Positions 2,672 through 35,395 of a stretch of 45,530 bases of DNA are shown here, one piece after another. The stretch is taken from the NCBI GenBank assembly GCA_016744655.1, contig JADGDY010000016.1, forward strand, positions 1-45,530. Direction: 5' to 3'. Origin of the DNA: Bacteroidales bacterium. GTDB lineage: Bacteria > Bacteroidota > Bacteroidia > Bacteroidales > UBA12170. Below the pieces are notes generated by a model. The model made no database searches. It had not been told where the DNA came from and saw nothing but the letters and a program-made list of their open reading frames with translations. Position 1 is the first letter of the stretch. Every line of letters starts with the position of its first letter. A program made the translations under genes and the position numbers.

Positions 2672-2679
2672 CAAAAATA
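2672..2679 (-). promoter_or_regulatory. -7 promoter element TATTTTTG for the lipoprotein gene
   Basis: Matches the Bacteroidota consensus TAnnTTTG on the minus strand and is followed by GC. It lies 38 bases upstream of ATG 2633. A TTTTG that could act as the -33 element lies slightly upstream, with shorter than usual spacing. Confidence 0.6.
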
Positions 2680-2866
2680 GATGCTATTATCAACAAAACG
2701 CTCATCCTTTAGGCTTAAATTCTGCCTTAAAAGGATTTATTTTCCTCATCCTTTAGTATGATGATGTTTGAAATATAGCATGTTGAATATTAGATTAGAA
2801 ATACTCGTTCCACTCATGTTTCACTAAATTACCAAATAGAAAAATATGTTTGGAAGACTAATTAGT

Positions 2867-5800: not shown

Positions 5801-7429
5801 AACATTTTGCTGAGTATATATTGCGGTATTATTATCAGAAGTATATGTTATTCCATTTCTCCAAGTATAAGAACCACATGCTTCTATTTCATCAATACTT
5901 TCTAGATTTTCGAAGATAGTAAGATTTAACGTAATCGTAGAATCACAACCTGCAGCGTTTTCAATGATATGAATAGCTGTATTATTGTTTTGTGTATAGG
6001 TATTTCCATCAATCCAGGTGAAAGACATGCATTCTTCATGGTAGTCTATACTTTCACTATCCTCTAGAATAGTTAGATCTAGAGTGATGATAGAGTCACA
6101 GCCCATGGCATTATCTATTATATGACTTGCAGTATTGTTACTTTCAGAATATGTTATACCATTTATCCAAGTATATGCTTCACAACTTGCTTGCTCATCG
6201 ATAGATTGTGTATTATGGTAAATTGTGAGATTAAGAGTAATCGTAGAATCACAACCTGCTGTATTTTCAACTATGTGAGTGGCTGTGTTATTGCTTTCAG
6301 AATAGGTGTTTCCATCAATCCAAGTATAGGATTCGCAGGCAGTATGTTCATAAGTAGCTTGCGTATTATTATTTATCGTTAAATTAAGAGTGATGATAGA
6401 ATCACAACCTGCTGTATTTTCAATAATGTGGGTCGCAGTATAATTACTTTCTGTGTAGTTATTTCCATCAATCCAAATAAAGGATTCACAAGCTTCATGA
6501 ACAGCCGTGCTTGAGGATGTTTCCAGAATAGTTAAGTCTAAAGTTACAATAGAGTCGCAACCAATGGCATTTTCTAGTATGTGAGTAGCAGTTGTATTGC
6601 TTTCAGTATAGGTGTTTCCATCAATCCAAGTATAGGTATAGCAAGCTTGGTGAGTATCAGTAGAAAAAGAGTTTTCGAGTATGGTGAGGTTAATAGTGAT
6701 GATAGAATCACAGCCTTCATAATTAGGTATGATATCTTCATAAGTTCCAGTAACATCCCAATAATAATCACCACTTGGGGAGGTGTATGAGCTACAAACC
6801 TCAGGGTTGATAGTTGACTCAGAATCTAAACAGACATCACAGGCATCATCATGACTTCCTGGACTCCCATATAATTGTTTGCCATTGATAATAACTCCAG
6901 TATTTGAAGATGAAATAGTCCAGTTGCTTCCTTCATTGTTGTCACTATTAACATCACATAAAACAAGGGAGGGACCATCACCTCCAGGCTCAGTAGGCCA
7001 AGGAGAACTTGTACCAAAGTCAACTTCATCTATTATATTATCATTATTATCTGTTAGGGTTATCGTTTCACCACCAGCATTTCTTAATCCATCAAAATTT
7101 AAGTTGTATGCGTTATCATATCCAAAATTTCTTTTTAATGCAACAGAGTCTTTTGCAATTACTATATACCCATGTGCTTCTATGGAAAGATTAGAAGGAA
7201 AAAAATAGTCATCTTGATCACTGATAATATATCCAGCAAGGTTGATAGAACTAGAAGTTGTGTTGTATAATTCAATATATTCTAAGCTATCAATACCTGA
7301 TTCTGGTGGATTATACATAATCTCAGTAATAACAATATCACCCGGTGAGACTGCAAAAATAGGTGTTACATATACAGTGCCTATGAGTAGTGATAGGGAT
7401 AATGAAAAACGTAGTAAAAGTTTAATCAT
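2867..7429 (-). CDS. Giant mosaic T9SS adhesin: lamin-tail, Cys repeats, SprB repeats
   Basis: 1520 residues from ATG 7429; a longer reading from TTG 7450 adds seven residues ahead of the signal peptide MIKLLLRFSLSLSLL and is less likely. Domains in order: signal peptide; lamin-tail domain (about 28-165: GDIVITEIMYNPPES, LEYIELYN, INLAGYIISD); eight roughly 47-residue repeats (about 205-590) with a C.SYTWIDGNTYTESNNTA core and ending GCDSIITLNLTI; an HYR-like stretch with two GNG/CPA motifs; seven SprB-type repeats of about 85 residues (C.G...GSI.I.A.GG.G.L.YSID.G..Y); an Ig-like PKD-type segment; and a type A sorting domain (TPNPNHGVFTLSL ... NGVYILSIKNG ... KKIVKH). It should be exported by Sec and T9SS and act in adhesion or gliding. 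SprB itself is a gliding adhesin, but these short repeats occur in many unrelated surface proteins. Own promoter at 7500-7530. Confidence 0.9.
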   Translation of the reverse strand: MIKLLLRFSLSLSLLIGTVYVTPIFAVSPGDIVITEIMYNPPESGIDSLEYIELYNTTSSSINLAGYIISDQDDYFFPSNLSIEAHGYIVIAKDSVALKRNFGYDNAYNLNFDGLRNAGGETITLTDNNDNIIDEVDFGTSSPWPTEPGGDGPSLVLCDVNSDNNEGSNWTISSSNTGVIINGKQLYGSPGSHDDACDVCLDSESTINPEVCSSYTSPSGDYYWDVTGTYEDIIPNYEGCDSIITINLTILENSFSTDTHQACYTYTWIDGNTYTESNTTATHILENAIGCDSIVTLDLTILETSSSTAVHEACESFIWIDGNNYTESNYTATHIIENTAGCDSIITLNLTINNNTQATYEHTACESYTWIDGNTYSESNNTATHIVENTAGCDSTITLNLTIYHNTQSIDEQASCEAYTWINGITYSESNNTASHIIDNAMGCDSIITLDLTILEDSESIDYHEECMSFTWIDGNTYTQNNNTAIHIIENAAGCDSTITLNLTIFENLESIDEIEACGSYTWRNGITYTSDNNTAIYTQQNVSGCDSIITLNLTILENSESTDIVESCDSYTWINGFTYSASNNTATHILENAAGCDSIITLDLTIGDNILPVVITQNIIVDLNEQGIVNITDEDINNGSYDNCGIAEMQLDKYQFNCNNIGNNTVTLSIIDNHNNVSTNTAIVTVRDLISPEITCPANQNLQVGENCQVVLPNYSNLLESSDNCSIQSIIQTPVAGTIFSIDQTGMHTINFVVNDGNGNSSNCDFVVNISDTEDFMIENASSSELTCYGDENASITIITSGASTLFYSIDGSDFTNTTGVFNGLGVGNYNIYVKNINGCIQEWPNVVTIEEANELVIDNVESTNITPCAGNDNASIEITVNEESGYYQYSINNGSSFSENPLFESLVAGEYHIVVRNQSNCEVAWNETIIITEPEAITLNQIDTQDINSCNGEETGEIHISAQGGSGNLQYSVDNGLNYESNNGDFLNLLAGTYQVLIKDANDCIYEHSEAIQITEPDLLVLANVQVNNVSQCNGNDNGKITITALGGSGELQYSIDDGTNYVSSGVFNNLTAGSYAVIIRDENFCEKEYENNPVIITEPSAMSISVSSSNISSCYGADEGSINIEANGGANDFTYSIDGGNNWNDNGNFNNLSSGTYEVIVKDAYDCTIAYSNNPIQITEPDAIVFESVNSSHVACFGGNEGSINIEAFGGTGSLLYSIDNGINYQTNSQFSNLEAASYSLFVKDANNCIHEYENNPVIITQNDEILIPSAEVNHVQCNGYLGSIHILANGGQGILWYSIDDGANYQESPNFTEVNAGDYLIKVKDGSDCEILFEDNPVVVEDAYASPVDITVNPENGPYCVNSGIYLQANADYAISYEWQPGGFSDQVIFVTSDSPQTINYEVTILNAFGCESTASVNIEYDICEQVWEADQTDLNILVTPNPNHGVFTLSLDQISEDIEISIIDFSGRMIIKETLLETSSEHLNKEFDIRDFENGVYILSIKNGESIIYKKIVKH

Positions 7430-7499
7430 ATTTGCATTAATTGGGCTCAATAATTTTCAGAAAATACTTCTTATATTGATAATGGTTAAATATTTATCA

Positions 7500-7530
7500 C
7501 AAAAATACATAATTATATGAGTTTCAAAAA
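7500..7530 (-). promoter_or_regulatory. Promoter of the giant adhesin gene (-33 TTTTTG, -7 TATTTTTG)
   Basis: On the minus strand, TTTTTG at 7530-7525 is followed after 17 bases by TATTTTTG at 7507-7500. This matches both elements of the primary-sigma promoter of Bacteroidota. The predicted transcript start lies about 60 bases before ATG 7429. Confidence 0.65.
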
Positions 7531-7765
7531 TTATAGGTGCTACTCATGCATTATATAACATGGATTATTATTAGGTATTATGGGATACAAAACTTGGTCA
7601 GGTCAGAATTAATACTCAAAGTATTATTTGTTTTTAAGATTAAAGAATCACTATAATAATTGTAAAAACACTGATTCTTTTGTGATTAGATGAATTTATA
7701 ATTGAATTAGCTGTTAAAAATGGCTTAATGGTGTATATCTAATTTTCTAAGGATTTAAAATTTCA

Positions 7766-7773
7766 TAGGTTTG
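7766..7773 (+). promoter_or_regulatory. -7 promoter element TAGGTTTG for the AbgT-family gene
   Basis: TAGGTTTGC fits TAnnTTTG and lies 44 bases before ATG 7818. No clear -33 TTG is seen. The rest of the stretch from 7531 to 7817 is AT-rich and holds no recognised gene. Confidence 0.5.
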
Positions 7774-7817
7774 CAAATTGTTAAAACTAAGTGTATAATA
7801 TTTAATTATTTCTTATT

Positions 7818-9356
7818 ATGAGTCAAAGCAAGCAGAAAGTCGGATTCTTTCAAAAGATGTTGAATTATACTGAAAAAGCAGGAAATGCCCTTCCTCATCC
7901 AGCTACTTTATTTGCCCTTTTCGCCTTAATTGCCTTAATTTTTTCCGCAGTAGGTCATTTTTTGGGTTGGGAAGTCATTCACCCAGGTACTGGCGAACTC
8001 ATTAAACCTGTTAACCTTTTATCACATGATGGAATTCACAGGATTTTATTAGAAATGGTAGATAATTTCACTGGTTTCGCTCCTCTAGGAATTGTATTGG
8101 TAGCAATGTTGGGTATTGGAATTGCTGAGCATAGTGGATTGATAAATGCGATTATTCGTTTATTGGTTCTTAATTCTCCAAAACATCTGTTAACCTTTGT
8201 AATGGTTTTTGCTGGAATCCTTTCTAATATGGCATCCGATGTGGGATATGTATTATTGATTCCTCTGGCAGGAGTTGTATTTATTGCAGTTGGACGACAT
8301 CCTATTGCAGGTATGGCAGCCGCATTTGCTGGGGTTTCGGGAGGATTTAGTGCCAACTTAGCCATCGGAACCATTGATCCTCTTTTGGCTGGACTTTCAC
8401 AAGAAGCAGCTCAAATTTTAGACCCAACTTATGAAGTAAATCCTACTGCTAATTATTATTTCATGGTAGCTTCAACTTTTATCATTGCTTTTGCTGGTAC
8501 TTTTATTACTGAAAAAGTTGTGGAGCCTCGATTAGGGACTTATAAGGGTGGACATGATGATTCTGAAGATAGTTTCGATACGCTCTCAAAGAAAGAAAAG
8601 AAAGGCTTGCTTTGGGCTACTGCTGTTATACTAGTTATTCTTGTGGTGACTTTAATTGGAATTATTCCTGAGGATGGTTTTTTTAGAGGAGCTGATGGTG
8701 GTGTGTTAACCAGCCCACTAATTAAAGGAGTTGTAGGTATGCTATTTGTTTCTGCTGGTGGAGCTGGCTTGGCATATGGAATTGCAACAGGCAAATTCAA
8801 AAACGATGGGGATGTGGTAGCTGGTATGTCAGCAAGTATGAAGTCGTTGGGAACCTATATGGTATTGGTTTTCTTTGCTGCTCAGTTTGTGGCTTATTTC
8901 AAATGGAGTAATTTAGGTATGATAGTAGCGGTAGAAGGTGCCGGATTATTAATGTCGTTAGATATTGGACTTGTCCCACTAATGATACTATTTATACTTC
9001 TTTCAGCTGCCATTAATATGGTAATGGGCTCAGCCTCTGCGAAGTGGGCGATTCTGGCTCCTATCTTTATCCCTATGTTTATGATTATGGGTTATTCACC
9101 TGAGTTATCTCAGGTGGTATATAGAATTGGAGATAGTGTAACCAATGTGATTTCGCCTATGATGAGCTTCTTTGCCTTGATTATTGCTTTCTTCCAAAAA
9201 TATGAACCAAAGGCTGGAATCGGAACGATTATCGCAACCATGTTACCTTATTCCATGGCTTTCCTAGTGATTTGGATTATTCTCTTAGTTGCTTGGTTGT
9301 TGATAGGTCTACCTCTTGGTCCTGATGCTGGTATTCACTATGTGATGCCTAAATAA
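7818..9356 (+). CDS. abgT: AbgT-family transporter
   Basis: 512 residues, near the family norm, with about 12 hydrophobic segments. The N-terminus (FFQKMLNYTEKAGNALPHPATLF), the GFAPLGIVLVAMLGIGIAEHSG motif at about 97-118, ASDVGYVLLIPLAG, GGFSANLAIGTIDPLLAG and NMVMGSASAKWAILAPIFIP near the C-terminus are all typical of the AbgT family (PF03806). E. coli AbgT imports p-aminobenzoyl-glutamate; other members (MtrF, YdaH) have been shown to export sulfonamides or related antimetabolites. The substrate here cannot be told from sequence, and there is no neighbouring abgAB hydrolase, so folate salvage is not supported. Monocistronic with its own strong terminator at 9403-9438. Confidence 0.95.
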   Translation: MSQSKQKVGFFQKMLNYTEKAGNALPHPATLFALFALIALIFSAVGHFLGWEVIHPGTGELIKPVNLLSHDGIHRILLEMVDNFTGFAPLGIVLVAMLGIGIAEHSGLINAIIRLLVLNSPKHLLTFVMVFAGILSNMASDVGYVLLIPLAGVVFIAVGRHPIAGMAAAFAGVSGGFSANLAIGTIDPLLAGLSQEAAQILDPTYEVNPTANYYFMVASTFIIAFAGTFITEKVVEPRLGTYKGGHDDSEDSFDTLSKKEKKGLLWATAVILVILVVTLIGIIPEDGFFRGADGGVLTSPLIKGVVGMLFVSAGGAGLAYGIATGKFKNDGDVVAGMSASMKSLGTYMVLVFFAAQFVAYFKWSNLGMIVAVEGAGLLMSLDIGLVPLMILFILLSAAINMVMGSASAKWAILAPIFIPMFMIMGYSPELSQVVYRIGDSVTNVISPMMSFFALIIAFFQKYEPKAGIGTIIATMLPYSMAFLVIWIILLVAWLLIGLPLGPDAGIHYVMPK

Positions 9357-9402
9357 AAACGTATAAGTACTCTTCTATAGTAAGAGCAATATAAAGATTT
9401 CT

Positions 9403-9438
9403 AGCCTATCGAAATAAGCATTTCGATAGGCTTTTTTT
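9403..9438 (+). terminator. Rho-independent terminator after abgT
   Basis: Perfect 12-bp stem AGCCTATCGAAA / TTTCGATAGGCT (9403-9414, 9421-9432) with a 6-base loop, followed by a T run. It starts 47 bases after the abgT stop. Confidence 0.95.
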
Positions 9439-9574
9439 ATTTTATTGGCCAACAAATGTAGATTTCAGTAACTTGAAAAAATAAATTCTTAACATCTAAA
9501 TTACAGAATACAAACATAATAGCTGTGAATTATAATTTTTTTGGAAACATATATGATGAAAAATTAAATAAACA

Positions 9575-9613
9575 TGTCATGACAAGTATAGTTTATATAT
9601 TTGTCATGACAAA
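9575..9613 (+). promoter_or_regulatory. Two palindromic operators over the MarR gene promoter
   Basis: TGTCATGACA at 9575-9584 and TTTGTCATGACAAA at 9600-9613 share the same 10-base palindrome, with centres 27 bases apart. A -7 element TATATTTG lies at 9596-9603, so the second palindrome overlaps it and the first sits where the -33 element would be. ATG of the MarR gene is at 9626, just 12 bases after the second site. The arrangement is that of autorepression by a dimeric winged-helix regulator. Sites and positions are seen directly; binding by this MarR protein is inferred. Confidence 0.72.
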
Positions 9614-9625
9614 CAAATAGATGCT

Positions 9626-10072
9626 ATGAATAAAATAAATTTAGAAACTTCAATTAATCATCACATTGCAATTAGTGCAATTATGATAAAGAGGGTGTTT
9701 TATAAAATATTAAGCAATCATGACCTTAAAATTACACCAGAGCAATGGGTTCTTCTTAATTATATTTCAGAATCGAATGGATATACTATAGGTGAGCTTA
9801 GTGGCTTGAGTGTGAAGGATTTTGCGAATACCAGTAGAATGATACAAAAGCTGGATATTGCTGGATTTATCACAAAGAAAGCGGACCCTGCCGACAAAAG
9901 GATATCTAAACTTTATCTAAGTAAAGAGGGAAAAGACCTCATAGAACAACTACATCAATGTGCTTTTGAATCGACTAATATTGCTATAGAAGGTATTGAT
10001 AAGGAGATACAAGAAATTGTATTGCACACTTTGAAAAAAGTTATTTCGAACACAAACAACTATTTAAAATGA
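9626..10072 (+). CDS. MarR-family transcriptional regulator
   Basis: 148 residues, the usual MarR length. Winged-helix pattern: ITPEQWVLLNYISE (helices 1-2), YTIGELSGLSVKDFANTSRMIQKLDIAGFI (recognition helix-turn-helix at about 55-85), then the wing DPADKRISKLYLSKEGKDLIE with the conserved D.R hallmark. It is the first gene of a two-gene operon: its TGA stop overlaps the ATG of the following membrane protein (ATGA at 10069-10072). Two palindromes on its promoter suggest autorepression, usually relieved by a small ligand or oxidation in this family. It has few cysteines (Cys110 in HQCAFES), so redox sensing cannot be excluded. Target specificity unknown; the co-transcribed membrane protein is the obvious regulated gene. 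Confidence 0.92.
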   Translation: MNKINLETSINHHIAISAIMIKRVFYKILSNHDLKITPEQWVLLNYISESNGYTIGELSGLSVKDFANTSRMIQKLDIAGFITKKADPADKRISKLYLSKEGKDLIEQLHQCAFESTNIAIEGIDKEIQEIVLHTLKKVISNTNNYLK

Positions 10073-10569
10073 AACAAATATCATTAAATCAGAAAAAATG
10101 GTTGAAATCCATTCACTTGGTTGCAGTAGGAGTATGGATTACAACAGGACTAGTCATGTTTCTTATTCATTTTTTAGCCGATGATTTTACTTCTGGAGAA
10201 CAACTTCAGCTCCTTAATGAAATCATCTATTATATAGATATGAGTATTTTAGTGCCTTCTGCAATTCTTTGTTTACTCACAGGTTGGATATATTCTCATT
10301 TCACCAAATGGGGCTATTTCAAACACGGCTGGCTTATTTTTAAATGGATAATCACTGTCTCTATTATTGTTTTAGGGACTGTTTTTTCAGAACCATGGAT
10401 AGCGAAAATGGTTCAAATATCAGGAGAATTAGGTTTAGAAGCTTTAAACGACTCCGATTATAAATTGTATGGATTATCACATAATATTTTGGGAGTTGCA
10501 ATGACAGGTACACTAATTATTGCTGTATTTATTTCTGTTTTTAAACCAAAAAAACCTGTAAGAAATTAA
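10069..10569 (+). CDS. Four-helix membrane protein, co-transcribed with MarR regulator
   Basis: 166 residues with four hydrophobic segments at about 14-34, 57-76, 89-108 and 135-157, preceded by a basic N-terminus. It resembles DUF2269-like predicted integral membrane proteins: early HLVAVGVWITTGLVMFLIHF, then LVPSAILCLLTGWIYSHFTKWGYFKHGWLIFKWI, then LSHNILGVAMTG. Several conserved-looking His and Trp residues lie within or next to the helices (His16, His85, His133), a pattern seen in membrane proteins that bind haem or metals, but this is not proof. The start overlaps the MarR stop by four bases, implying translational coupling. The stop lies one base from the stop of the convergent AEC gene, leaving no room for a terminator. 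Function unknown. Confidence 0.82.
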   Translation: MKQISLNQKKWLKSIHLVAVGVWITTGLVMFLIHFLADDFTSGEQLQLLNEIIYYIDMSILVPSAILCLLTGWIYSHFTKWGYFKHGWLIFKWIITVSIIVLGTVFSEPWIAKMVQISGELGLEALNDSDYKLYGLSHNILGVAMTGTLIIAVFISVFKPKKPVRN

Positions 10570-10570
10570 T

Positions 10571-11521
10571 TTAGAAATAGGTGAAAAATAATACGCTTAT
10601 TGTCAGTGTACTAAGAGCTAATGTTACCATGATTGAAGTGGAAACCAGATCGGGTCGGCAATTGTATTGTTTTGCAAATACAACTGTTAATATTGCAGAA
10701 GGCAGAGCTGTTTCAATAAACACGATTTCGCGCATCATGCTGGTGAACTCAGGTGAATTTGTAAATACTACAGCTAAAACGGGTTTTATTATTAATTTTA
10801 GTAGTATTGCGACTGCTATGAATAAATAAATGTGTTCTATTTTTTTGATTTCAATAATTAGCCCAACAGTGAAGCCAACCAACAAAAAGTTAGCTGCTCC
10901 TACTACACCTAAAAAATTCGAGATCGTTTTAATAGCAAATGAAGATTGGTTTAGGGGCAAAAAAGATATCCCGAAACCAAGAATCAGAGCGAAGAATATA
11001 GGAGAAGTAAAAAATTGTTTAACCGATTTTGATATAGCACTTCCTTGGATATCGGTATCTCCATAGATCATTGCAATTAATGGTCCAAGAATAAATAGGA
11101 GGAGTCCAACTCCAAATTCACTGGTTACAACGGCCGCTTCTATTGCTATGGGATTGTGTGGGAATATCTGCTGTATTAATGGGTAGCCAAGCATAGAAGT
11201 CATACCAAAGGCTGATACTAACATTAAAGCTCCTTTTTCACCTGAATTAAATTTTAATAATGTGGCAAATCCCCAAGCTAAACCAAGAATAAGTAACTCA
11301 ATTGCTGCCATTATTAAAGCCATCCATAAAAAATCGATATTAAAAGTATGGAGGGCTAGAGTAGAAAAAATGATAGCAGGAAGGGTAACTTTCAACACAA
11401 TATTAGCAAAGAACTTGCTGTCCTCTTTTTTAAGGATACCATTTTTTTTAAGAATAATGGTCAGGAAAATAATTGCAATGATTACAATGACACCTTCTAA
11501 TAAACTCGTGAATTCATTCAT
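10571..11521 (-). CDS. AEC-family permease (auxin efflux carrier fold)
   Basis: 316 residues with about ten hydrophobic segments, the AEC/PF03547 length and layout. Motifs: GILKKEDSKFFANIVLKVTLPAIIFSTLAL (helix 1-2 loop), SAFGMTSMLGYPLIQ at about 105-118, GFGISFLPLNQSSF, FLVGFTVGL and FIETALPSAILTVVFAKQYNCRPDLVSTSI near the end, where an LPS/T..V.A..Y..... motif is typical. Bacterial members move dicarboxylates such as malate or malonate, or other anions. Substrate here unknown. It converges with the preceding membrane protein gene with a one-base gap. No exact promoter element was found upstream; a near match lies around 11550. Confidence 0.9.
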   Translation of the reverse strand: MNEFTSLLEGVIVIIAIIFLTIILKKNGILKKEDSKFFANIVLKVTLPAIIFSTLALHTFNIDFLWMALIMAAIELLILGLAWGFATLLKFNSGEKGALMLVSAFGMTSMLGYPLIQQIFPHNPIAIEAAVVTSEFGVGLLLFILGPLIAMIYGDTDIQGSAISKSVKQFFTSPIFFALILGFGISFLPLNQSSFAIKTISNFLGVVGAANFLLVGFTVGLIIEIKKIEHIYLFIAVAILLKLIIKPVLAVVFTNSPEFTSMMREIVFIETALPSAILTVVFAKQYNCRPDLVSTSIMVTLALSTLTISVLFFTYF

Positions 11522-25009: not shown

Positions 25010-26032
25010 CTAGGTTAATTCTTCTTTTGTAATGACTCCCTCGTCCAGAAGTTCACGAATAACAATCTCAGTCATATCACTTTTAAATTGAAATTCATAG
25101 CGTATATCCATTACATAGGCTTTTAGTCGCATTTTTAAATAGGATCGATGCTCTTTTACTTCGTTGAAGAATAATACGTTAATGGGCTTATTTAGATAAA
25201 CGTATTTTGAAACTTGCGCACTTTCTGTAGCTATTTTTCTTACTTTTTGAGTATCCACATCTATAGGGAGATAAATTTCAGCTACTACTTGACAATTCAG
25301 TTCACCAGAGTTGGAATTAGAAACGGAGGAGTTGACTAATTCTGAATTTGGAACAGAAACCACAGAATCATCAGGAGTAACAAGTTTTGTTGCTCTAAGA
25401 CCGATTTCTAAAACTTCACCATAGTGTTTTCCACTGTCAATTTTATCACCAACTTTAAAAGGTCTGTCGAGGATTAAAGCCATTCCGCCGAACACATTTT
25501 TTAAAATATCCTGAGCCGCCAAACCAATAGCAATTCCTATGGAGGCTGTAAATGCCAATATGGTTTGAAATGGAGGATTGAAAATACCTTTAATAATTGC
25601 AAAGATGATGATGGACCACATGAGAATCCGAAAAACAGGGATAAAGCCTTTGATTGCAATTCTAAGTTTGGCAGAACGCTCCGAGATCAAAACTAAAACT
25701 TTGATCACCATCTGTATGAAATAATAGGCCAAGATGAGCACAATAACCGTCCAGAATATTTTGGAAACCGAAATAACTTCTAAAACTTCTTTTGGCTTGT
25801 CCGGCACATTCTCTCCTATATCTTTAAGTATAGTTGATTCTTCATTGTTTAAAGTTGAATCATTTTTTTTAGCCTCCTCAATAGGAGTGGATATGTTCGA
25901 TTCAATTTGAAGGCTGTCTATTAATGGTATCTGTGTTTTTGCACTGTCCCCTTGACTCATTCCAAGAATTGAAATGAGAAGAAAGCTCAAGCTAAATGAG
26001 AAAATGAGGACTATATTTTTTATCTTTTTCAT
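25010..26032 (-). CDS. MscS-family mechanosensitive channel, coupled to the coiled-coil P-loop gene
   Basis: 340 residues. A signal-like hydrophobic segment (4-24) is followed by a polar, acidic linker (27-85) presumably outside the membrane, three transmembrane segments (about 93-115, 130-150, 157-180), and the MscS beta domain. The pore-lining helix and start of the beta domain read ASIGIAIGLAAQDILKNVFGGMALILDRPFKVGDKID, typical of MscS (PF00924), with GEVLEIGLRATKLVTPDDSVVSVPNSELVNS after it. The C-terminal alpha/beta domain ends with ELLDEGVITKEEL. Such channels release small solutes on osmotic downshock. Its ATG overlaps the stop of the upstream 1013-residue protein (TAATG), showing translational coupling. 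That coupling suggests a channel tuned or assembled by the partner, which is inference. Confidence 0.93.
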   Translation of the reverse strand: MKKIKNIVLIFSFSLSFLLISILGMSQGDSAKTQIPLIDSLQIESNISTPIEEAKKNDSTLNNEESTILKDIGENVPDKPKEVLEVISVSKIFWTVIVLILAYYFIQMVIKVLVLISERSAKLRIAIKGFIPVFRILMWSIIIFAIIKGIFNPPFQTILAFTASIGIAIGLAAQDILKNVFGGMALILDRPFKVGDKIDSGKHYGEVLEIGLRATKLVTPDDSVVSVPNSELVNSSVSNSNSGELNCQVVAEIYLPIDVDTQKVRKIATESAQVSKYVYLNKPINVLFFNEVKEHRSYLKMRLKAYVMDIRYEFQFKSDMTEIVIRELLDEGVITKEELT

Positions 26033-29000
26033 TAGTTGATGAAATTATGTGAACGTAATAAATCAACCACTTGTCTGAAAATAATAGGATTGATATTGTA
26101 TTTCTCTTTAGGTTTTATGAGCAGGCCCTTTTCTAGCATCGGAATAAGGTCGTTTCTACAAATATATTCTGGAGCTTTAAAAACCTGGGCATAATCTTCT
26201 ATTTCTAATCCGTCGTGAACAAGAATGGCATGAAGAGCAAACAGATAATTCGGTGGTAAATCTTTATCGAATGACACATCAAAATCCCTTAATGATTGTA
26301 TGTGGATGGTATCTTCTGAAATACCATGAGTAGATCGGAGCCAGTACAATTGGGCCAAACTAACATTGCCATTCGACATTTGATTAAGTTCCTTGAAGAA
26401 GGCTTTTTTTAGATAGATTTGCTTGTCAGTTTCATTTAGTTTTTGATAAGATTTAGATAACAAATTGCTTTCAGAAGGCTCGAAATTTATTTTATAGCCA
26501 CTCAGATAGTTTCTTTTGAGAATGATTTCTTCTACCGTTTGATCGGTGAATTTTTGAAGATGGATTTCATTGATGAAAACAGAAGAAACCTTTAAGGTTT
26601 TCTCCAAATATTCCCATGATTTTGAAGTATAAGTGCCAATCCAAAATATTTTTTTTGAAGTGCTGGTCATTAAATCAAACAACATTTTCTGACTCCCAAA
26701 ACCCCTGACTTTCTTTAAATACAGGTGTTGGAGGTTTTCAAGGATGATGATACGTTCTTCTTTAAAATTATTGATATGATTAATGATTTCATCATTGCTG
26801 GTGAAACTATCTTGTTTAAGGACTTCGGCAAAGAAAGAATAATAGGCCTTGGTTTCGTATATTTTAGTACTGATTTCGTGCTTGATAACTGAAATTTCTC
26901 TATCAATATTTTTAAGAAAATAGAGGAGGAGTGAAGTGATACCACTACCTTTTTCACCTATCACAGCAGAAGTGATAAATCGACCTTTCTCCCAACTTTG
27001 AAATCCGTGATTTAGCTTTTCTAGTTCCGTTTTCCTGTCCACAAAAAATCGTTCTTCATTAGTAGGGGTGAGTTGATAGAGTCTTTGATAAACAAAGGGG
27101 AGCTTTTTAAGTGCTTCATCGGTTTTTCTAAGAAAATCAGATAGCTCATGGGAGATGTGAGGCTTCTCTGTGATCACACCAAGTTTCTTCTTGATCTCTA
27201 AAATGAAACTATTGGTATTGGAGAATTGATCCTTTATAAAGGTCATGGATTTAGGAATGAAGTTTACAATCCACTCCCAGGTTTCTTTGCGTATTCTTTT
27301 CGATCGCTCAATGGCTCTAATTCTTACTATTTTTACATTGAGCTCTAGAATATTATCAGTATTCTTTAGTTTTTGAATTTCAGTATTAAAATTATTAATG
27401 GTGATTTGAAGTTGCTCGAGTGGGGTCACTTTAATCTTGTCCATTAAATTGCTGGCCTCATCTAGATGAACTAAAGCCCTATCGTAACCTTCTGTTACCA
27501 CTTTTATACTTCCTTTAATAGCGTTTCTCTTTTCTTGGAGCATCATTTCAGCTGATTCCAAACTAAAGTCGCTAACTGTTCCCAAAGCAATAAGCTTTAC
27601 CCTCGATTTCTCCAAATGATCTTCCACAAAATTTTCTACTTCAAGAATAGATGCCTTGAAATGTGGTAGGGCTTCAAAGTTGAGCAAGTCACGTAATGAC
27701 AGCCAATTAATATCGCTGCTTTTTATACCAGACTCATAATTCTTGTTTTTAACGAAGCCTCTTTTGTCTGAAATCTTTTCTACCAAGTTCATGGTTTGAG
27801 CATTAAAAAGCTCTAAGTTTCTATTGATATTTCCAGATAACTTTTCAATGGTTTTTGCTAGAAGCTTTTCAATGAATTCCTCAGAATTTCTTTTACGTTC
27901 TACTTTAAGAATGTTTCTTAATTCCTTGGAAGATGAACTGTTTTCGATAATGTTTTTAGAAGAGTCTGTAATGTACTCCCTAAGTAATTCCAAATTGAAA
28001 CTGAGATTTTCGTTGATATAAAGGCTTATTTTATCATGTAGATCAGCGAAATTATCTAAAACACTTACATAGAGCAATACAATTTCCACATCCACTGTCC
28101 AGTCATCAAGTAGGGTGTTGTGTGTGTTTTTCCATCTCTCTAAACTTACATTATAGGAATTGATTGTTTTATTCTGAAGCTCTTTAATAGCTGAATTACG
28201 AAATTTACTTGTCGACAAATCGGGTGTGTCAACTATGAGTAAAGCATCATCTAATTGGGTAAATGTAGAAAATAGAGCCTCCTCAATTTTGTTTTGGATT
28301 TGATTTTTATCCTCCTTTATCTTCGATCGTAAACCTTGGATAAGTTTGTTGAAGTTCTCTTTGTTAAGTATTTCCGATATTTCCTGTGAATCCTTTTCTA
28401 ATATGCTGTTTTGTAGATCTTCTTCTAAGGCTTCGTCAAATTCCCAAACCGCCAATAATAATTGGCTTTTATGGAGCATTAATTCCTCAAGAATAGGTTT
28501 CATTATTTCATCAAAATGATGAGTGAGGTAATAACGAATCATGGAGCGATAGGGGATCTTCCTTTTTCTATAGGATTGAAGATCGAGTGGTGATTTCTTA
28601 AATATTCGCCTAAAGAAATTGTAAAACTTCTTTTTTCTTACTGAAAGCTTAATGCTAAAATTTAAGCTCAGCTTTTTAAAAAATTGGGGGATTCTTAATT
28701 TGTTGTTGATCTTATATCCTTCAAAAACTTCCTTTCGAATCAAGCTTTTCGGAAGTGTTTTTATGAGTTTTTCGAGTTCCTTATGGTAGCTGTCAGTGGT
28801 AAACTGATGTTCGTAATGTATGATAGCTTCTTGACTTTTTTGGAGCAAGTCGAGTATGCTTTCTTTAAATTCTCTTAAGTGAGAATAGCTCGCTAAATCT
28901 TTAATGTCTAATTCTTCAAGCTTTTTGTACCGCAATTCGTAGGCATCAACAAAACTTGAAAACTCTTGAATACTTTGTTGATAGTATTTAGAAATCTCAG

Positions 29001-29073
29001 TTTGTAATTCTTTTTCCGATTGTTCCCATAAATGCTTTAGTTCTTTGTTATTAAGCTTAGCAGTTTCTTTCAT
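26032..29073 (-). CDS. Coiled-coil protein with AAA/STAND-like P-loop domain, MscS partner
   Basis: 1013 residues, no signal peptide and no clear membrane segment, so likely cytoplasmic. Residues 1-640 are highly charged and helical with long coiled coils. Residues about 675-900 look like an AAA/STAND P-loop NTPase domain: FVDRKTELEKL (675-687, the Box II-like lead-in of ORC/STAND ATPases), AVIGEKGSGITSLL (703-716, Walker A position) and RIIILENLQHLYL (774-786, Walker B position, acid Glu779). A C-terminal winged-helix-like region (about 935-1013) follows. The Walker A lysine is replaced by isoleucine (G-x-x-x-x-G-I-T); the codon reads ATC. The stop overlaps the start of the MscS gene by one base. 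I recognise no named family. Possible roles include a tension or stress sensor that gates or anchors the channel. A near-consensus -7 (TATTTTTA) lies at about 29086-29093. Confidence 0.85.
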   Translation of the reverse strand: MKETAKLNNKELKHLWEQSEKELQTEISKYYQQSIQEFSSFVDAYELRYKKLEELDIKDLASYSHLREFKESILDLLQKSQEAIIHYEHQFTTDSYHKELEKLIKTLPKSLIRKEVFEGYKINNKLRIPQFFKKLSLNFSIKLSVRKKKFYNFFRRIFKKSPLDLQSYRKRKIPYRSMIRYYLTHHFDEIMKPILEELMLHKSQLLLAVWEFDEALEEDLQNSILEKDSQEISEILNKENFNKLIQGLRSKIKEDKNQIQNKIEEALFSTFTQLDDALLIVDTPDLSTSKFRNSAIKELQNKTINSYNVSLERWKNTHNTLLDDWTVDVEIVLLYVSVLDNFADLHDKISLYINENLSFNLELLREYITDSSKNIIENSSSSKELRNILKVERKRNSEEFIEKLLAKTIEKLSGNINRNLELFNAQTMNLVEKISDKRGFVKNKNYESGIKSSDINWLSLRDLLNFEALPHFKASILEVENFVEDHLEKSRVKLIALGTVSDFSLESAEMMLQEKRNAIKGSIKVVTEGYDRALVHLDEASNLMDKIKVTPLEQLQITINNFNTEIQKLKNTDNILELNVKIVRIRAIERSKRIRKETWEWIVNFIPKSMTFIKDQFSNTNSFILEIKKKLGVITEKPHISHELSDFLRKTDEALKKLPFVYQRLYQLTPTNEERFFVDRKTELEKLNHGFQSWEKGRFITSAVIGEKGSGITSLLLYFLKNIDREISVIKHEISTKIYETKAYYSFFAEVLKQDSFTSNDEIINHINNFKEERIIILENLQHLYLKKVRGFGSQKMLFDLMTSTSKKIFWIGTYTSKSWEYLEKTLKVSSVFINEIHLQKFTDQTVEEIILKRNYLSGYKINFEPSESNLLSKSYQKLNETDKQIYLKKAFFKELNQMSNGNVSLAQLYWLRSTHGISEDTIHIQSLRDFDVSFDKDLPPNYLFALHAILVHDGLEIEDYAQVFKAPEYICRNDLIPMLEKGLLIKPKEKYNINPIIFRQVVDLLRSHNFIN

Positions 29074-29235
29074 ACATTGTTTATTTCATGCTAAAAATAC
29101 AATATTTCTATAGAATAAGAAGTCATCGATCACAACAAAAGCCAACTTTTAAAGTTTATAATGGTCTTAATGGCATATCAATTATTAAAAAATTGTAAAA
29201 ACTGTTCAAGCTTTGCGATAATTAATGCATTGAGA

Positions 29236-29265
29236 TTTGCCAATGCAAATTATGGTTTATATTTG
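29236..29265 (+). promoter_or_regulatory. Promoter of the 269-residue lipoprotein gene (-33 TTTG, -7 TATATTTG)
   Basis: TTTG at 29236-29239 and TATATTTG at 29258-29265 are separated by 18 bases, close to the Bacteroidota consensus. ATG 29326 lies about 60 bases downstream. It lies inside a longer open reading from 29161, which therefore should not be translated. Confidence 0.7.
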
Positions 29266-29325
29266 CAGACTATTTTCGAGTATCAAAGAAATCAATCAAT
29301 TATATCAAATAAAAACAAAAAGTAC

Positions 29326-30135
29326 ATGAAAAAGTTTAAATTTATTTTATTATTTGTTGCTGCTTTAAGTATGGGTTTAACCTCTTGTAGCAAAGACGAT
29401 GACGAAACACCAGTAGATGTAACTCCAAACTTGGATTTTAAAGGTGGAAGCGATTATATTAGCACAGATGCTGTTGTTACAGCAGGTGAGGCCTTTAAAA
29501 TTGGAATTACGGCTTCTTCTAATGCTAACTCTGGAAAAAAATTGAAATCTGTTGTATTGACCATTACATCAAACAATGTAATTATCGGAGGAGATACTGC
29601 TGAATTTAGTGAAAGTTCTTATAATCGTGATTATGAAATTACAATGTCAGATCCAGGTGAAAGTGTTCTTAAATTTGTTGTAACAGATAAAGACGGACAA
29701 ACAAAAACTATTTCTTTAACTATTACTGCTGAATCTGCTGATACTCCACTTGGAGCTGCTGCTGATACTTATTTCGAAAGAGTAGGTGGAGCTGATGGAA
29801 CTGGCTTAGAAGCTTTTGGTTTGAAATGGGATTCTAATGTTGAAAGAGCATTTTATGCTGTTCTTTCTAAAGATGCTGCTACTAAATTAGTGACCTTAAC
29901 TGCTGCTGAGTGGACAAGTATTACTACTGTTGAAGCTTTAACAGCTGCTGTTGATGCTGCTGAAGGTATTGAAGACTTTAGGGGTATTTCAGTAACTGCT
30001 GATGGAGATTATGATGATGTTTTAGGTGTTATTTATAACGATGAATATCATATGATTCACCTAACGAGTGCTACTGTTACTGTTGATGCAGTTAACGGAA
30101 CAACTGCTAAAATTTACGGTCAGTCTAAGAAATAG
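29326..30135 (+). CDS. Surface lipoprotein, unknown function, probably well expressed
   Basis: 269 residues from ATG 29326. A lipoprotein signal peptide ends at Cys21 (SMGLTSC) and is followed by SKDDDE, which fits the acidic surface-export signal of Bacteroidota lipoproteins. The mature part is about 250 residues with an Ig-like stretch (about 35-135: NLDFKGGSDYISTDAVVTAGEAFKIGITASSN...VVLTITSNN...TDKDGQTKTISLTITAES) and then a second domain containing AADTYFERVGGADGTGLEAFGLKW, YAVLSKDAATKL and IYNDEYHMIHLTSA. I cannot name the family. Codons are strongly biased to A/T-ending forms such as GCT and ACT, as in the C25 peptidase gene, suggesting high expression. It is divergent from the P-loop/MscS operon. 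Terminator at 30154-30191. Confidence 0.85.
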   Translation: MKKFKFILLFVAALSMGLTSCSKDDDETPVDVTPNLDFKGGSDYISTDAVVTAGEAFKIGITASSNANSGKKLKSVVLTITSNNVIIGGDTAEFSESSYNRDYEITMSDPGESVLKFVVTDKDGQTKTISLTITAESADTPLGAAADTYFERVGGADGTGLEAFGLKWDSNVERAFYAVLSKDAATKLVTLTAAEWTSITTVEALTAAVDAAEGIEDFRGISVTADGDYDDVLGVIYNDEYHMIHLTSATVTVDAVNGTTAKIYGQSKK

Positions 30136-30806: not shown

Positions 30807-33800
30807 CTATCTTTTGACAAGTTTGGTAGTATTGGTGGCACTTTTATTAGTTAATCTAATGAAGTATAATCCATTTGCTTGATCATGTAAATCTATTTCA
30901 GAAATTCCGGAATCTATAGTGCTTTGTTCGATGGTATTCCCTTTGGAATCAGAGATATGTACTTGGGTTTGTTCTGAAATATCGATTTTGAAATATCCAC
31001 TAGTTGGATTGGGGTAAACTAAAATTGGCGAGGATTCTAAATCATCAACGGATTCAATGATTTCAAATATGGCATGTAACTCTCGGCTGGTCCATACTGT
31101 AAAACTGTAATTCAAGTTTCCACTTACTGGTTCACCATTTTCTTCCCAACCTACAAAAGCAAAGTTGTTGTTTGGTGTAGCAGTTAAATTTGCTGTGCTG
31201 CCATAATCATACATTCCAGAGCCAGTAACATTTCCTCCATAAGCAGGAACGGCAATGGCATCTATTTCGAACTCTTGAATAAGAAAATGAGCCATTAAAT
31301 TTCTATCTGCAGTCACAGTGAAACTAAATTCAGGATCCACTGATACAACATCACCATCCTCTGTCCATTTTACAAAGTTAAACGCCGTGGAAGGATTAGC
31401 TGTAACGGTTGCAATCTCTCCATACTCATAGCTTCCGTCACCTTCAACCCCACCACCACCATCAGGGTTTACACTCGCCGTAATATTGTATTCAGCAATG
31501 ATGAAATTGGCTTGTAAAATCATGCTACTACTAACACTAAAAGTATAGACCGCTTGGTTACTCACCACACTTCCATTATGAGTCCAGCTTAAGAATTCCC
31601 AACCAGTAAATGGTTCTGCAATTACTGTGGTTTCATCACCATAGTTGTAATTGCCACCACCACTTGCAGTTCCTGCATTTTGAGGATCCACAGTTACAGT
31701 GATTTCAAAATCATAGGCTCCAAAATGAGCTTCTAAATCTCTGTCTTCGTTAACAGAGAAGTATATATGGGGGTTAGTAGAGATAACATTTCCGTTTTCT
31801 CGCCAATTGATGAAATAGAATCCTTCATTAGGAATGGCATCCATAGAACAGTTTTGACCTGGGCCATAATTTCCATTACCTTCTATAATAGCTGAACCTG
31901 AAGGAACTGCAATGGCATTTACTACATAATATTCTTCGGAGAAGTTGGCGACTAAATTTCTATTTTCGGTGATTTCAAATTCATAAATATCGTCAGAGGA
32001 TACCACAGATCCGTTTTCCGTCCAATTAATAAATTCATAATCATTTAGCGCAGTAGCTGTCATGGTGACTAAATCGCCATAGGCATATTCTCCTTCACCT
32101 GTGATGTTACCTCCATCTGCAGGGTTTGCTAAAGCTGTTACTATAAAGGCATCACCTTGGAAATGTGCAACTAAATCGGTGTTTTGAGTGACAGTGAATG
32201 TGTAATTACTATTAATGGATACTTGTTCACCATTTATTCTCCACTCCATGAAATTATAATCTGGATTGGGATTGGCTGTAACTGTTACAGATTCTCCATA
32301 TTGATATATTCCTCCGCCTTCTACACTTCCTCCACTACTAGGGGAGGCTTCTACAGTAACTGTAAATTCCTCCATGCCAAAATTTGCTTGCAGGTTGATA
32401 TCTTCTTCTACAATAAAAGTATAGGTTTCGTTGCTGCTTACTTCTGAGCCATTATTCGTCCAATTAAGAAACTGATATCCTTCATTGGCTTCTGCATGAA
32501 CACTGCATGATTCACCTTGCATGAAATTTCCATCTCCTTCAGTAATTCCTGCGCTACTTGGTGAGGAAACTGTCTCCACTTGATAATATAAATATGGTGT
32601 AATATGAACAATGAAGCTTACATTCCATACTCCTTCGTCCCCTTCCAGTTGTAGATTAAAGATCACATCCTTTTCTGGACAATCTGCAGATACCTCAAAG
32701 TCAAAATCATTATAAGACCAAGCTTGTGAGCCCTCAGAAATATCACCAAATTGTTCGTAATAATCGGTTACTGTAATATGAGGATCGTTAGTGCTTAATT
32801 GACCATATACAGAATGGACTGGTGCATTTCCAGTATTTGAAATAAGTATTGGTAGTTCAATAGTTTCATCAGGTTCTGCAAAACCATCACCATCACCATC
32901 GCTTTCCCCAATATCATCATCATCTATTTCGTAGGAATCAAAAACTAGTTGAGGACTGCCAGCTCCAACTACAGGAACAAAAAATGTACTCGTCCAGGTC
33001 CCTTCATCAGCTGTAATATTTAGAGTAAACATGATTGTTTTATCTTCACAATCCGCTGCAATATCAAAATCATAAGAATAGTTGGTCCAGCCATATTCTT
33101 GAGCATTTAAATTTTGAAAAGATTCGTTTGCGTCTGTGATATCTATATCTGAGTCTTCACAGCTTAGTACAGCAGAAATACTATGAGCTGTAGCATCCCC
33201 TAGGTTTTCAATTTCAACTTTCATTTCAATGGATTCTCCAGCCGAGGGAATACCATCACTATTGCCATTAGAAGATCCATTATCATCATCATCAATTATA
33301 TGATCGTTGTATGCTAAAAGAGGAGCGCCTTCAGTAGCATAAATATGGATGGTAAATGTATCATCCCATACTCCTTCGTCTGATTGAATATAAAGGTTAA
33401 AAGTGACATCTTTTTCAGGAGTTCCATAGCCTACAGAAAAGTCGAAATCTAAATCGCTCCATCCCAAATCATTGATCATTATTGTGCCAAAATTCTCGGA
33501 GTTATCGGTAATACTAATATCTGAGTCGGAGCAGGAGATGGTAGCTATAACACTATGTGCGATTGCGGAACCAGAATTGAAAATGGAAAGAGGCATTTCT
33601 ATGTTTTCTCCAGGTTCAGCTTTATGGTCGGCATCCCCAGAACTTGAACCATTATCATCATCGTCAATAATGAAACTAGCAAATTCCAATACAGGTGCAC
33701 CAGTAACGCTTATATGAATTGTGAAATTAGAGGTCCATATACCTTCATCAGAGGTAATGGTTAAAGTGAAAATCACATCCTTTTCAGGACAAGCAGAAAG

Positions 33801-35276
33801 CACATTAAAATCAAACTCATTATTTGACCAATCGGATGTGCCAGCAACGATACTACCATAGTTTTCATTGGCATCTGTAATATTGATAAATGGATCGTTA
33901 GTGCTTAGAACCGCACTTACATTATGTGCATTTCCTTCTCCAATATTCTGGATGAGCACTGGCAGTTCTATATGTTCTCCTGGTTCGGCTAATCCATTGT
34001 TATTTCCACTACTATTGTTTGAGTTGTCATCATCAATTGTAAATTCTTCAAAAGCCAATTGTGGCATTCCTTGTTCAGAAATATGAACCACAAAACTATC
34101 AAACCAAATACCCTGATTTGATTCAATTTCTATATTAAACACTACATCCTTATCAGGACAATTGGTATTCACTTCTATATCAAAGTCATTGTCGCACCAA
34201 GCTACTGCACCGGCAGCAATATCTGGGTAATATTCAAAATGGTCAGTAATAACAATATCTGAATCATCTGTGCTAATTGAAACAGAAATACTTGTGGCTG
34301 TTAGTACTCCAGTATTATGTACTTGAATAGGAATTTCAATGGTTTCTCCTGCTTCCGCTATACCATCTCCATCACCATCACTCGACCCAGAATTGTCATC
34401 ATCGATGTTGTGATTGGCATATTCTAGAACTGGAGAACCCGGATGAATAATTGCAACAGTAAAAATACTGGTCCATGTTCCTTCATCAGAGGTGATTTGT
34501 AAGGTGAATTCTACATCTTTATCGGGACAAGTAGATGAAATATCAAAGTTGTAATTATAATTACTCCAGGACTCTTCATTTACCAAGATATCTCCAAAAG
34601 ATTCTGAATCATCAGTAATTTCAATATCAGAATCGTTACAAGTTAATAGTGCTGTTACATTGTTAGCTGCTGCTTCACCTGTATTTTTAATACTTACTGG
34701 CAGTTCTATAGATTCACCTGATTCTGCAATTCCATCTCCATCTCCATCACTGCCATTGTTGTCATCATCATCAATTTGGTGATTGAAATAAGTAAGTGTG
34801 GGGCTTCCGGCTTCACTAACATGAACAGTAAAAGTGCTGGTCCAGGTTCCTTCGTTGGCCTGTATAGTTAGAATAAACTCTATGTCTTTCTCTGGGCAGC
34901 TAGAAGATACTTCAAAATCGTAATCATTATTGCTCCAATCTGTTTCGCCAGCAGAAACGGTTCCAAATGTTTCTTGATTATCTATGATATCAATCATGGG
35001 GTCATTGCATGATAATATTGCACTGACATTATGAGCGGTAAAATCTCCAGTATTTATAATAGATAAAGGAAACTCTACTGTTTCTCCTCCTTCTACTAAT
35101 CCATCTCCATCTCCATCACTTTCACCATTCACATCATCATCAACAAGATGTGTAGCATAGTTTAATTCTGGTGACATGACTCCTCTATTTCCTTGAGCAA
35201 TAGACTCATGTGGAATTGTGAGTAGCCAAAGCATGGCAATAAGAATCACACTAAAATTTAAAGACTTTTGTCTCAT
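30807..35276 (-). CDS. Giant T9SS protein: seven CARDB-like then seven InlB-type repeats
   Basis: 1489 residues from ATG 35276 (a TTG 35312 reading adds twelve residues ahead of the signal peptide and is less likely). After the signal peptide (ending near SIAQG), seven repeats of about 123 residues run from about 30 to 895. Each opens IDDDxxGxSDGDGDGIAExGE, an acidic calcium-type loop, followed by ELPV.I.NTG.A.AHNVSA.LS..D..I.ITD, W..N.FDF.V, CPEKDV.F.L.I and DEG.WTS.F.VHI. Seven InlB B-repeat-like units of about 73 residues follow (GG.V.G.G.Y.YGE..T..A.PN..Y.F..W..NG..VS....Y.FTV......AHF). A type A sorting domain ends the protein (VYPNPTSGYFKIDI ... NGLYFIRLTNK ... KLVKR). A long, probably calcium-stiffened surface fibre or adhesin is the natural reading; ligand unknown. 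Confidence 0.9.
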   Translation of the reverse strand: MRQKSLNFSVILIAMLWLLTIPHESIAQGNRGVMSPELNYATHLVDDDVNGESDGDGDGLVEGGETVEFPLSIINTGDFTAHNVSAILSCNDPMIDIIDNQETFGTVSAGETDWSNNDYDFEVSSSCPEKDIEFILTIQANEGTWTSTFTVHVSEAGSPTLTYFNHQIDDDDNNGSDGDGDGIAESGESIELPVSIKNTGEAAANNVTALLTCNDSDIEITDDSESFGDILVNEESWSNYNYNFDISSTCPDKDVEFTLQITSDEGTWTSIFTVAIIHPGSPVLEYANHNIDDDNSGSSDGDGDGIAEAGETIEIPIQVHNTGVLTATSISVSISTDDSDIVITDHFEYYPDIAAGAVAWCDNDFDIEVNTNCPDKDVVFNIEIESNQGIWFDSFVVHISEQGMPQLAFEEFTIDDDNSNNSSGNNNGLAEPGEHIELPVLIQNIGEGNAHNVSAVLSTNDPFINITDANENYGSIVAGTSDWSNNEFDFNVLSACPEKDVIFTLTITSDEGIWTSNFTIHISVTGAPVLEFASFIIDDDDNGSSSGDADHKAEPGENIEMPLSIFNSGSAIAHSVIATISCSDSDISITDNSENFGTIMINDLGWSDLDFDFSVGYGTPEKDVTFNLYIQSDEGVWDDTFTIHIYATEGAPLLAYNDHIIDDDDNGSSNGNSDGIPSAGESIEMKVEIENLGDATAHSISAVLSCEDSDIDITDANESFQNLNAQEYGWTNYSYDFDIAADCEDKTIMFTLNITADEGTWTSTFFVPVVGAGSPQLVFDSYEIDDDDIGESDGDGDGFAEPDETIELPILISNTGNAPVHSVYGQLSTNDPHITVTDYYEQFGDISEGSQAWSYNDFDFEVSADCPEKDVIFNLQLEGDEGVWNVSFIVHITPYLYYQVETVSSPSSAGITEGDGNFMQGESCSVHAEANEGYQFLNWTNNGSEVSSNETYTFIVEEDINLQANFGMEEFTVTVEASPSSGGSVEGGGIYQYGESVTVTANPNPDYNFMEWRINGEQVSINSNYTFTVTQNTDLVAHFQGDAFIVTALANPADGGNITGEGEYAYGDLVTMTATALNDYEFINWTENGSVVSSDDIYEFEITENRNLVANFSEEYYVVNAIAVPSGSAIIEGNGNYGPGQNCSMDAIPNEGFYFINWRENGNVISTNPHIYFSVNEDRDLEAHFGAYDFEITVTVDPQNAGTASGGGNYNYGDETTVIAEPFTGWEFLSWTHNGSVVSNQAVYTFSVSSSMILQANFIIAEYNITASVNPDGGGGVEGDGSYEYGEIATVTANPSTAFNFVKWTEDGDVVSVDPEFSFTVTADRNLMAHFLIQEFEIDAIAVPAYGGNVTGSGMYDYGSTANLTATPNNNFAFVGWEENGEPVSGNLNYSFTVWTSRELHAIFEIIESVDDLESSPILVYPNPTSGYFKIDISEQTQVHISDSKGNTIEQSTIDSGISEIDLHDQANGLYFIRLTNKSATNTTKLVKR

Positions 35277-35395
35277 GTATACAACGTTTACAACACAACA
35301 TTTGAAATTCAAAGTCTACCTTAAATTGAATTTCATCTAAAGGTTTCAGCTTTAGATAGTTCGTTATACTCGAAATGGAAGTAAAAGTTACGACT

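Follow-up and report, generated by a model that had tools for sequence, protein, structure and literature searches.

A gene pair for an MscS-family channel and an AAA+/winged-helix protein with some relatives fused to ion transporters

An overlapping gene pair in a Bacteroidales contig

We analysed a stretch of 45,530 nucleotides (the window) from a Bacteroidales bacterium, contig JADGDY010000016.1 of GenBank assembly GCA_016744655.1, and describe a pair of genes in it, one encoding a large soluble protein and the other an MscS-family protein (Table 1). An earlier inspection of the letters and open reading frames (ORFs), here called the sequence-only reading, had reported that a 1013-residue gene overlaps the MscS gene as TAATG. 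This is confirmed, and both genes lie on the minus strand with one base in common.

Table 1. Features of the gene pair, in positions of the window
Feature	Position	Strand	Basis
Large partner protein, 1013 aa, soluble; helical N-terminal part and AAA+/winged-helix module	26032..29073	-	ORF call; predicted structure (pLDDT 85.7); homologues
Helical / coiled-coil region, residues 10-630	27184..29046	-	DSSP on predicted model; segment identity
AAA+ domain, residues 643-935, Orc1/Cdc6-like fold	26269..27147	-	Profile matches; model; Foldseek
Degenerate Walker A GEKGSGITS, residues 706-714, Lys -> Ile	26932..26958	-	Motif reading
Winged-helix-like C-terminal domain, residues 941-1013	26035..26253	-	Model; Foldseek
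MscS-family channel, 340 aa, module-adjoining subtype	25010..26032	-	PF00924; model; reciprocal census; tree
N-terminal hydrophobic helix of MscS, residues 1-24	25961..26032	-	Hydropathy and model; signal-peptide-like by eye
TM3 pore helix of MscS, residues 155-189, Gly/Ala-rich like ordinary MscS	25466..25570	-	Model; Gly+Ala count
Cytoplasmic alpha/beta domain of MscS, residues 244-330; highly conserved among linked MscS; possible docking surface	25043..25303	-	Model; segment identity
TAATG stop-start overlap of both genes	26030..26034	-	Sequence; one base in common

The large protein matches AAA_22 and AAA_16 in Pfam, both below their cut-offs, and has no match in NCBIfam. Sequence-profile comparison with solved structures gave weak matches, mostly to coiled-coil or P-loop proteins (best E 9.7e-5), and a hydropathy scan found no transmembrane segment. 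In an AlphaFold2 model built from a 62-row alignment (mean predicted local distance difference test score, pLDDT, 85.7), residues 10-630 are nearly all helix, and after them come an alpha/beta domain and a winged-helix-like C-terminus. A Foldseek search with the C-terminal part placed Orc1/Cdc6-type AAA+ proteins first (7jgr, E 1.5e-7), with RuvB, TnsC and MuB lower in the list (TnsC 7plh, TM-score 0.59 normalised by target); the matches are partial throughout. The predicted structure is that of an AAA+ fold with a C-terminal winged helix of the Orc/Cdc6 type.

Orc1/Cdc6, RuvB, TnsC and MuB all act on DNA, and this order of fold matches would suit a winged helix that binds DNA, by which the pair would link membrane tension to transcription or chromosome anchoring. 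However, matches to these proteins are expected for any winged-helix AAA+ protein, and winged helices also serve as protein-binding modules in STAND proteins. We regard a DNA-binding role as very unlikely.

Neither Walker motif is intact in the window protein. Walker A, expected as GxxxxGK[ST], has isoleucine in place of the lysine, and Walker B, expected as hhhhD[DE], reads IIILEN. Because the Walker A lysine is lost, nucleotide (ATP) hydrolysis by this protein is doubtful. The same lysine is kept in 82 of the 168 readable members of the family (171 minus three unreadable) and is gone in the other 86. The sequence-only reading had described an AAA/STAND-like signalling ATPase with a long helical part and a winged-helix-like C-terminus; the helical part, the winged helix and the AAA+ fold are all seen in the predicted structure, but the catalytic lysine is absent. 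Matches to nSTAND1 were found in two relatives only and are sub-threshold.

The helical region is the least conserved part of the large protein by segment identity. Eight short members, with called ORFs of 298-433 aa, keep the AAA+/winged-helix part alone, and MscS still adjoins them; because they retain it beside MscS, this part looks like the core. No helical arm is called upstream of these members (L166, L168, L169, L172, L177, L184, L219 and L220, where L numbers denote loci).

The MscS protein of the pair matches PF00924 through its beta domain (E 1.2e-19; 70.6 bits against a cut-off of 20.2) and matches the MscK, YnaI and MscS structures by sequence profile. Its third transmembrane helix (TM3), the pore helix, is rich in glycine and alanine.

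Conservation of the pair

A scan of named genomes yielded 129 relatives of the large protein among 399 candidate stretches, from which the best 80 loci were kept. These are mostly Bacteroidota by record name; the others come from Ignavibacteria and relatives, KSB1, Calditrichaeota, Gemmatimonadetes and Proteobacteria, all as metagenome-assembled genomes. MscS adjoins the large gene in 79 of 79 testable loci, the remaining contig (L065) ending within the large gene. In 75 loci the ORF that follows on the same strand is MscS (split in two ORFs in L058, cut by the contig end in L102 and L131), and in two others (L126 and L133) it lies directly upstream. In L103 the large gene is broken and MscS follows 129 bases on, with a small opposite-strand ORF called between, and in L059 the contig holds the first 95 codons of MscS only. 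Closer to the window, 21 of 99 related genomes have relatives, as do 29 of 198 genomes of the order, with some overlap between the two sets. MscS is the next downstream ORF in 31 of the 34 loci kept from these genomes, the window's included; another gene takes that place in L014 and L027, and L015 ends. The host assembly of 5.2 Mb has six MscS-domain genes, that of the window included, so adjacency this close to universal among relatives is far beyond chance.

The reverse search covered 395 genomes of the phylum, with the subtype defined as a match to the window MscS at E 1e-30 or better; in this search and the module search of the same genomes, at most five first-look candidates were scored per genome. 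We found 64 subtype genes, one per genome, the weakest at E 1.5e-55. The subtype is therefore sharply bounded relative to the threshold. A module match lies on the same strand within 4.5 kb in 62 of the 64, with MscS downstream of it in 48 and upstream in 14. In the other two genomes (G536 and G443) MscS and module are on separate contigs; the module contigs, of 3.6 and 3.8 kb, start within the large gene, so any partner upstream of it would be missing. The sequence-only reading had offered the two genes as a candidate two-gene system, whose pairing would be incidental if either protein usually occurred without the other. Neither is the case: homologues of the large protein stand beside MscS genes, and MscS proteins of the window's subtype keep the large partner. 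This supports a fixed partnership of the large protein and MscS.

Clustering of the neighbours of the 80 loci found MscS alone at a constant place. The next largest cluster is present in 12 of the 80, at varying places, and a fixed third partner of the soluble class was rejected. The recurrent upstream proteins of this class had seemed candidates for TrkA or TrkH, but the ones scanned proved to be adenylosuccinate lyase, peptidase M3, AstE/AspA, RimK and others.

Transporter-fused forms of the module

Searching the 395 genomes for the module gave hits in 106 at E 1e-3 or better. We used the 79 hits at 1.6e-13 or better; the weaker ones look like generic P-loop matches. Most (62) are the pairs counted in the reverse search, six are fusions to a CPA-type Na+/H+ exchanger domain and three are fusions to an SLC12 domain, all with MscS, and L192 also has MscS. 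The rest comprise two loci with a short neighbour (L209 and L210), two with another membrane protein (L212 and L213) and three cut by contig ends (L201, L206 and L208). The short neighbours in L209 and L210 match a custom MscS profile, that of L209 without a Pfam match. Hydropathy and Pfam find no SLC12 or CPA2 membrane domain in the window protein; only relatives have one.

The SLC12 fusions, of about 1700 aa, carry the SLC12 domain with the module at the C-terminus, and the two that were scanned match AA_permease. The SLC12 part of L047 matches NKCC1 (E 1.2e-82) and KCC4 (E 2.6e-79), and its match to TIGR00930 (1.8e-122) is under the curated cut-off. An MscS-like gene of 237-252 aa follows the fusion in 10 of 11 loci. 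In L047 MscS genes lie on both sides of the fusion (4015-4869 and 10127-10876), and the upstream one groups with ordinary MscS. In L054 (7717-11313) the fusion is seemingly split, a 514-aa SLC12-like ORF lying just upstream of a 1198-aa ORF with the remainder.

The CPA fusions, of about 1495 aa, carry a Na+/H+ exchanger domain with the module at the C-terminus and are followed by an MscS gene of 334-355 aa. L045 matches PF00999 (E 1.8e-15) and, below the cut-off, the CPA2 model TIGR00932 (1.6e-7); no solved structure was matched by sequence to its CPA part. All seven CPA loci, two of which are near-copies (L190 and L191), have a membrane protein of a 414-aa type upstream and TrkH and TrkA downstream, on the same strand. 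TrkH was identified by Pfam in three loci and TrkA in one, the rest by BLAST to these; the 414-aa-type protein had no Pfam match in the four scanned. The L192 member (6062-10459), 1465 aa long, has a multi-pass membrane N-terminus in which Pfam finds no transporter family at E 0.001; farther upstream of it is a gene for a weak relative of the 414-aa protein.

All 11 SLC12 fusions and all seven CPA fusions have the Walker A lysine, as do 64 of the 150 other readable members. These counts bear on a role of the large protein as an assembly or insertion chaperone, or quality-control factor, for MscS rather than as a gating subunit. AAA+ folds often remodel proteins, and the gene overlap would suit co-translational assembly. 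However, a protein that lacks this lysine, as do the window protein and 86 of the 168 readable members, is ill-suited to be an ATP-driven chaperone, and such a role leaves the fusion to whole transporters unexplained. We consider it distinctly unlikely.

Divergence of module and MscS

A quick tree of 78 MscS proteins, including the window's and 22 randomly drawn from soluble members with MscS downstream, places the soluble-linked proteins in one group (SH-aLRT, the Shimodaira-Hasegawa-like approximate likelihood ratio test, 99), with truly unlinked MscS outside it. The partners of CPA fusions (99) and of SLC12 fusions (98) each form their own group. Three proteins labelled as unlinked fall inside the soluble group (L166, L168 and L172) and actually adjoin modules whose called ORF is under a 350-aa filter. 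The MscS of L192 has a very long branch outside the soluble group. Gene order has switched at least twice within the soluble-linked group, with the pair retained.

There are 154 pairs with non-identical MscS: 124 classed as soluble with MscS downstream, 13 with MscS upstream, 10 SLC12 and seven CPA. The gap between the genes is at most 15 bases in 105 of the 124 soluble-downstream pairs. Module distances and MscS distances are correlated both across all 154 pairs (r 0.78, where the largest of 2000 permutations gave 0.23) and among the 124 soluble-downstream pairs (r 0.77; largest permutation 0.18). For the seven CPA pairs r is 0.94, and the largest permutation also gave 0.94.

The pore helix in the different classes

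As a measure of the pore helix we counted Gly+Ala over 19 of its positions. The window MscS has seven, and the mean is 6.4 for the soluble class with MscS downstream (n=125 including the window, range 3-8) and 8.5 with MscS upstream (n=13, range 6-10). Other MscS proteins of the window's own genome average 7.4 (seven rows, five distinct), and unlinked MscS 7.5 (22 rows, including L166, L168 and L172). In contrast, the mean is 2.1 for partners of CPA fusions (n=7, range 0-4) and 2.9 for partners of SLC12 fusions (n=10, range 1-8), where L171 accounts for the value of 8. Because it keeps a Gly/Ala-rich pore helix, the window MscS looks like a real channel, whereas most of the fused-class partners do not.

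The module might instead mainly control transporters, in which case the transporter of the window's clade would be encoded elsewhere and MscS would be a sensor rather than an efflux valve. Two classes are fused to transporters and have MscS-like partners mostly poor in pore-helix Gly and Ala, and a few soluble members have a Na+/H+ exchanger gene immediately upstream (identified by Pfam in L062 and L070, by clustering in L077 and L089 and by eye in L063). However, the pore helix of the window MscS is normal, and no transporter gene directly flanks the pair in the window. We think this arrangement unlikely, although it deserves some weight.

Distribution and the possibility of a defence role

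The module occurs in 47 of 92 genomes of one family, including 10 of 10 in one genus and seven of eight in another but none of nine in a third. Among 10 other genomes of the window's genus, three have the soluble form and one an SLC12 fusion. Such patchy presence in the genus would be consistent with anti-phage defence by abortive infection, in which the STAND-like protein would sense infection, open the channel and kill the cell; known defence systems include such arrangements of an AAA+/STAND-like sensor beside a membrane pore. Against this, PADLOC returned no family for either protein at E up to 1 (only the pair was scanned, not its neighbours), and the soluble form, the one searched, has no relatives in viral contigs, 72,556 plasmids or 50,697 phages. 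The locus position is stable in L165-L189 (largely one family), since, of the 24 loci for which an upstream neighbour was called, 16 have a common neighbour family there. Fusion of the module to transporters and its clustering with TrkH and TrkA also argue against defence, to which we give very little credence. The sequence-only reading had left an osmotic and a suicide or defence function side by side; the fusions to SLC12 and CPA2 transporters and the TrkH/TrkA cluster favour the osmotic branch, and the empty searches disfavour the other.

Proposed function of the pair

We propose, with moderate confidence, that the two proteins work as a single unit in osmotic and ion homeostasis, in which the large protein is a cytosolic regulator that docks on and tunes the inner-membrane MscS channel. 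The AAA+/winged-helix end would be the conserved core that works with MscS, and the long helical arm would reach out or oligomerise. The core may dock on the cytoplasmic cage of the MscS heptamer, for which the conserved alpha/beta domain of linked MscS would fit as the docking surface. Once docked, it would respond to a bound nucleotide, to crowding or to ionic strength by shifting the tension threshold or open time of the channel, and the pair would be an osmotic valve under regulation. In the window's clade the partner probably does not burn ATP as a motor but serves as a binding switch or adaptor. In related clades the module fused to a cotransporter or antiporter would regulate salt flux, and the MscS-like partner, its pore helix mostly lost, may act as a membrane sensor subunit.

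Several points weigh against this proposal. Physical contact, gating, the direction of control and the ligand are what we infer, and the osmotic role rests on the neighbours and fusions of other clades. Correlated divergence of module and MscS also follows from shared descent, and the 10 SLC12 pairs reach an r of 0.50 that is beaten by at least one of 2000 permutations. The pore-helix counts of the classes overlap slightly (3-8 for soluble downstream, against 0-4 for CPA and 1-8 for SLC12). The alpha/beta domain of linked MscS approaches its beta domain in conservation (identity 0.68 versus 0.73), unlike that of other MscS (0.21 versus 0.33), but this control mixes subfamilies. The soluble form is found in just the three of 10 other genomes of the window's genus. 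Two relatives are without MscS in the fetched stretch: a soluble one of 994 aa (L046, the genome of L027) and an SLC12 fusion (L053, the genome of L014). In L212 and L213 a membrane protein of 185 or 187 aa stands in the MscS position, that of L212 without a Pfam MscS match.

By eye, response-regulator-like genes lie upstream in L046. In L053 an unrelated AAA-like gene (2237-3628) lies downstream in the MscS position, and the presence of another ATPase-like gene close by is a possible sign of an insertion. The relative in L212 and L213 has 749 aa, and the membrane protein that follows it (6175-6729 in L212) is possibly a further degenerate MscS.

More tentatively, and with rather less confidence than in a regulated MscS channel, we suggest that the helical arm, AAA+ domain and winged helix form a previously unrecognised module with an MscS-type protein as near-constant partner, which may control bacterial volume and salt balance in three modes. 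It would act as a separate regulator of a real MscS channel, as the tail of NKCC/KCC-type cotransporters, or as the tail of CPA2-type antiporters near TrkH and TrkA. In the fused modes the MscS fold, with its pore helix mostly lost, would have changed from a channel into a sensor of tension or crowding and, by way of the module, would drive the transporter.

Relation to known systems

MscS channels are the standard textbook example of a membrane protein that responds to tension by gating on its own, and the known family members have been studied as stand-alone tension-gated channels. The window MscS shares the PF00924 beta domain and the TM3 pore helix with MscS, YnaI, MscK and MscM, but its subtype differs in having a dedicated partner gene and a C-terminal domain that is highly conserved. 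Ion channels regulated by cytosolic partners with a nucleotide fold are already known. RCK/KTN domains (TrkA, KtrA, the KefC domain) are cytosolic nucleotide-fold modules that occur as separate partners or fused to various ion transporters. The likeness to the present module, also either separate or transporter-fused, is one of logic alone: the module is AAA+ with a winged helix and unrelated to the Rossmann RCK, and a true TrkA lies near it in the CPA cluster. Orc1/Cdc6-type AAA+ proteins and STAND ATPases share the AAA+ core and winged helix with the large protein; in contrast, the window protein is without the Walker A lysine, has a long helical arm and is paired with a membrane channel. 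Some relatives carry the SLC12 domain of NKCC and KCC proteins (L047) and seven loci that of Na+/H+ exchanger/CPA2 antiporters, whereas the window protein has neither.

The module matched no specific model in Pfam or NCBIfam, and among the members scanned a generic AAA match rises above the cut-off in L049 alone. We found no title or abstract opening that names the pair or the module fusions, in sources that cover few subscription papers and no bioRxiv preprints. The module, its partner channel and the SLC12 and CPA2 fusions appear to be undescribed so far. Together with the fusions to salt transporters, the fixed pair points to an undescribed control unit for the salt and pressure balance of the cell. 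If the proposal is correct, a whole MscS lineage would be under intracellular control, through a dedicated cytosolic partner that has been retained in several phyla. The link to bacterial NKCC/KCC relatives would offer a prokaryotic case of volume sensing joined to cation-chloride cotransport, in adjacent genes or in a single polypeptide; how the two are coupled is difficult to resolve in animals.

Other genes of the window

The window neighbours that were scanned are ordinary: flavodoxin, cytidine deaminase, acyl-CoA dehydrogenase, electron transfer flavoprotein subunits, a TonB-dependent receptor, an AbgT transporter, a radical SAM protein and surface proteins sorted by the type IX secretion system. 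Two of these surface proteins are large (30807-35312 and 2867-7450), one with InlB B-repeats and CARDB and the other with SprB repeats and a lamin tail domain. By eye, the true start of the ORF at 29161-30135 is likely internal, giving a lipoprotein that begins MKKFKF and is divergent from the pair.

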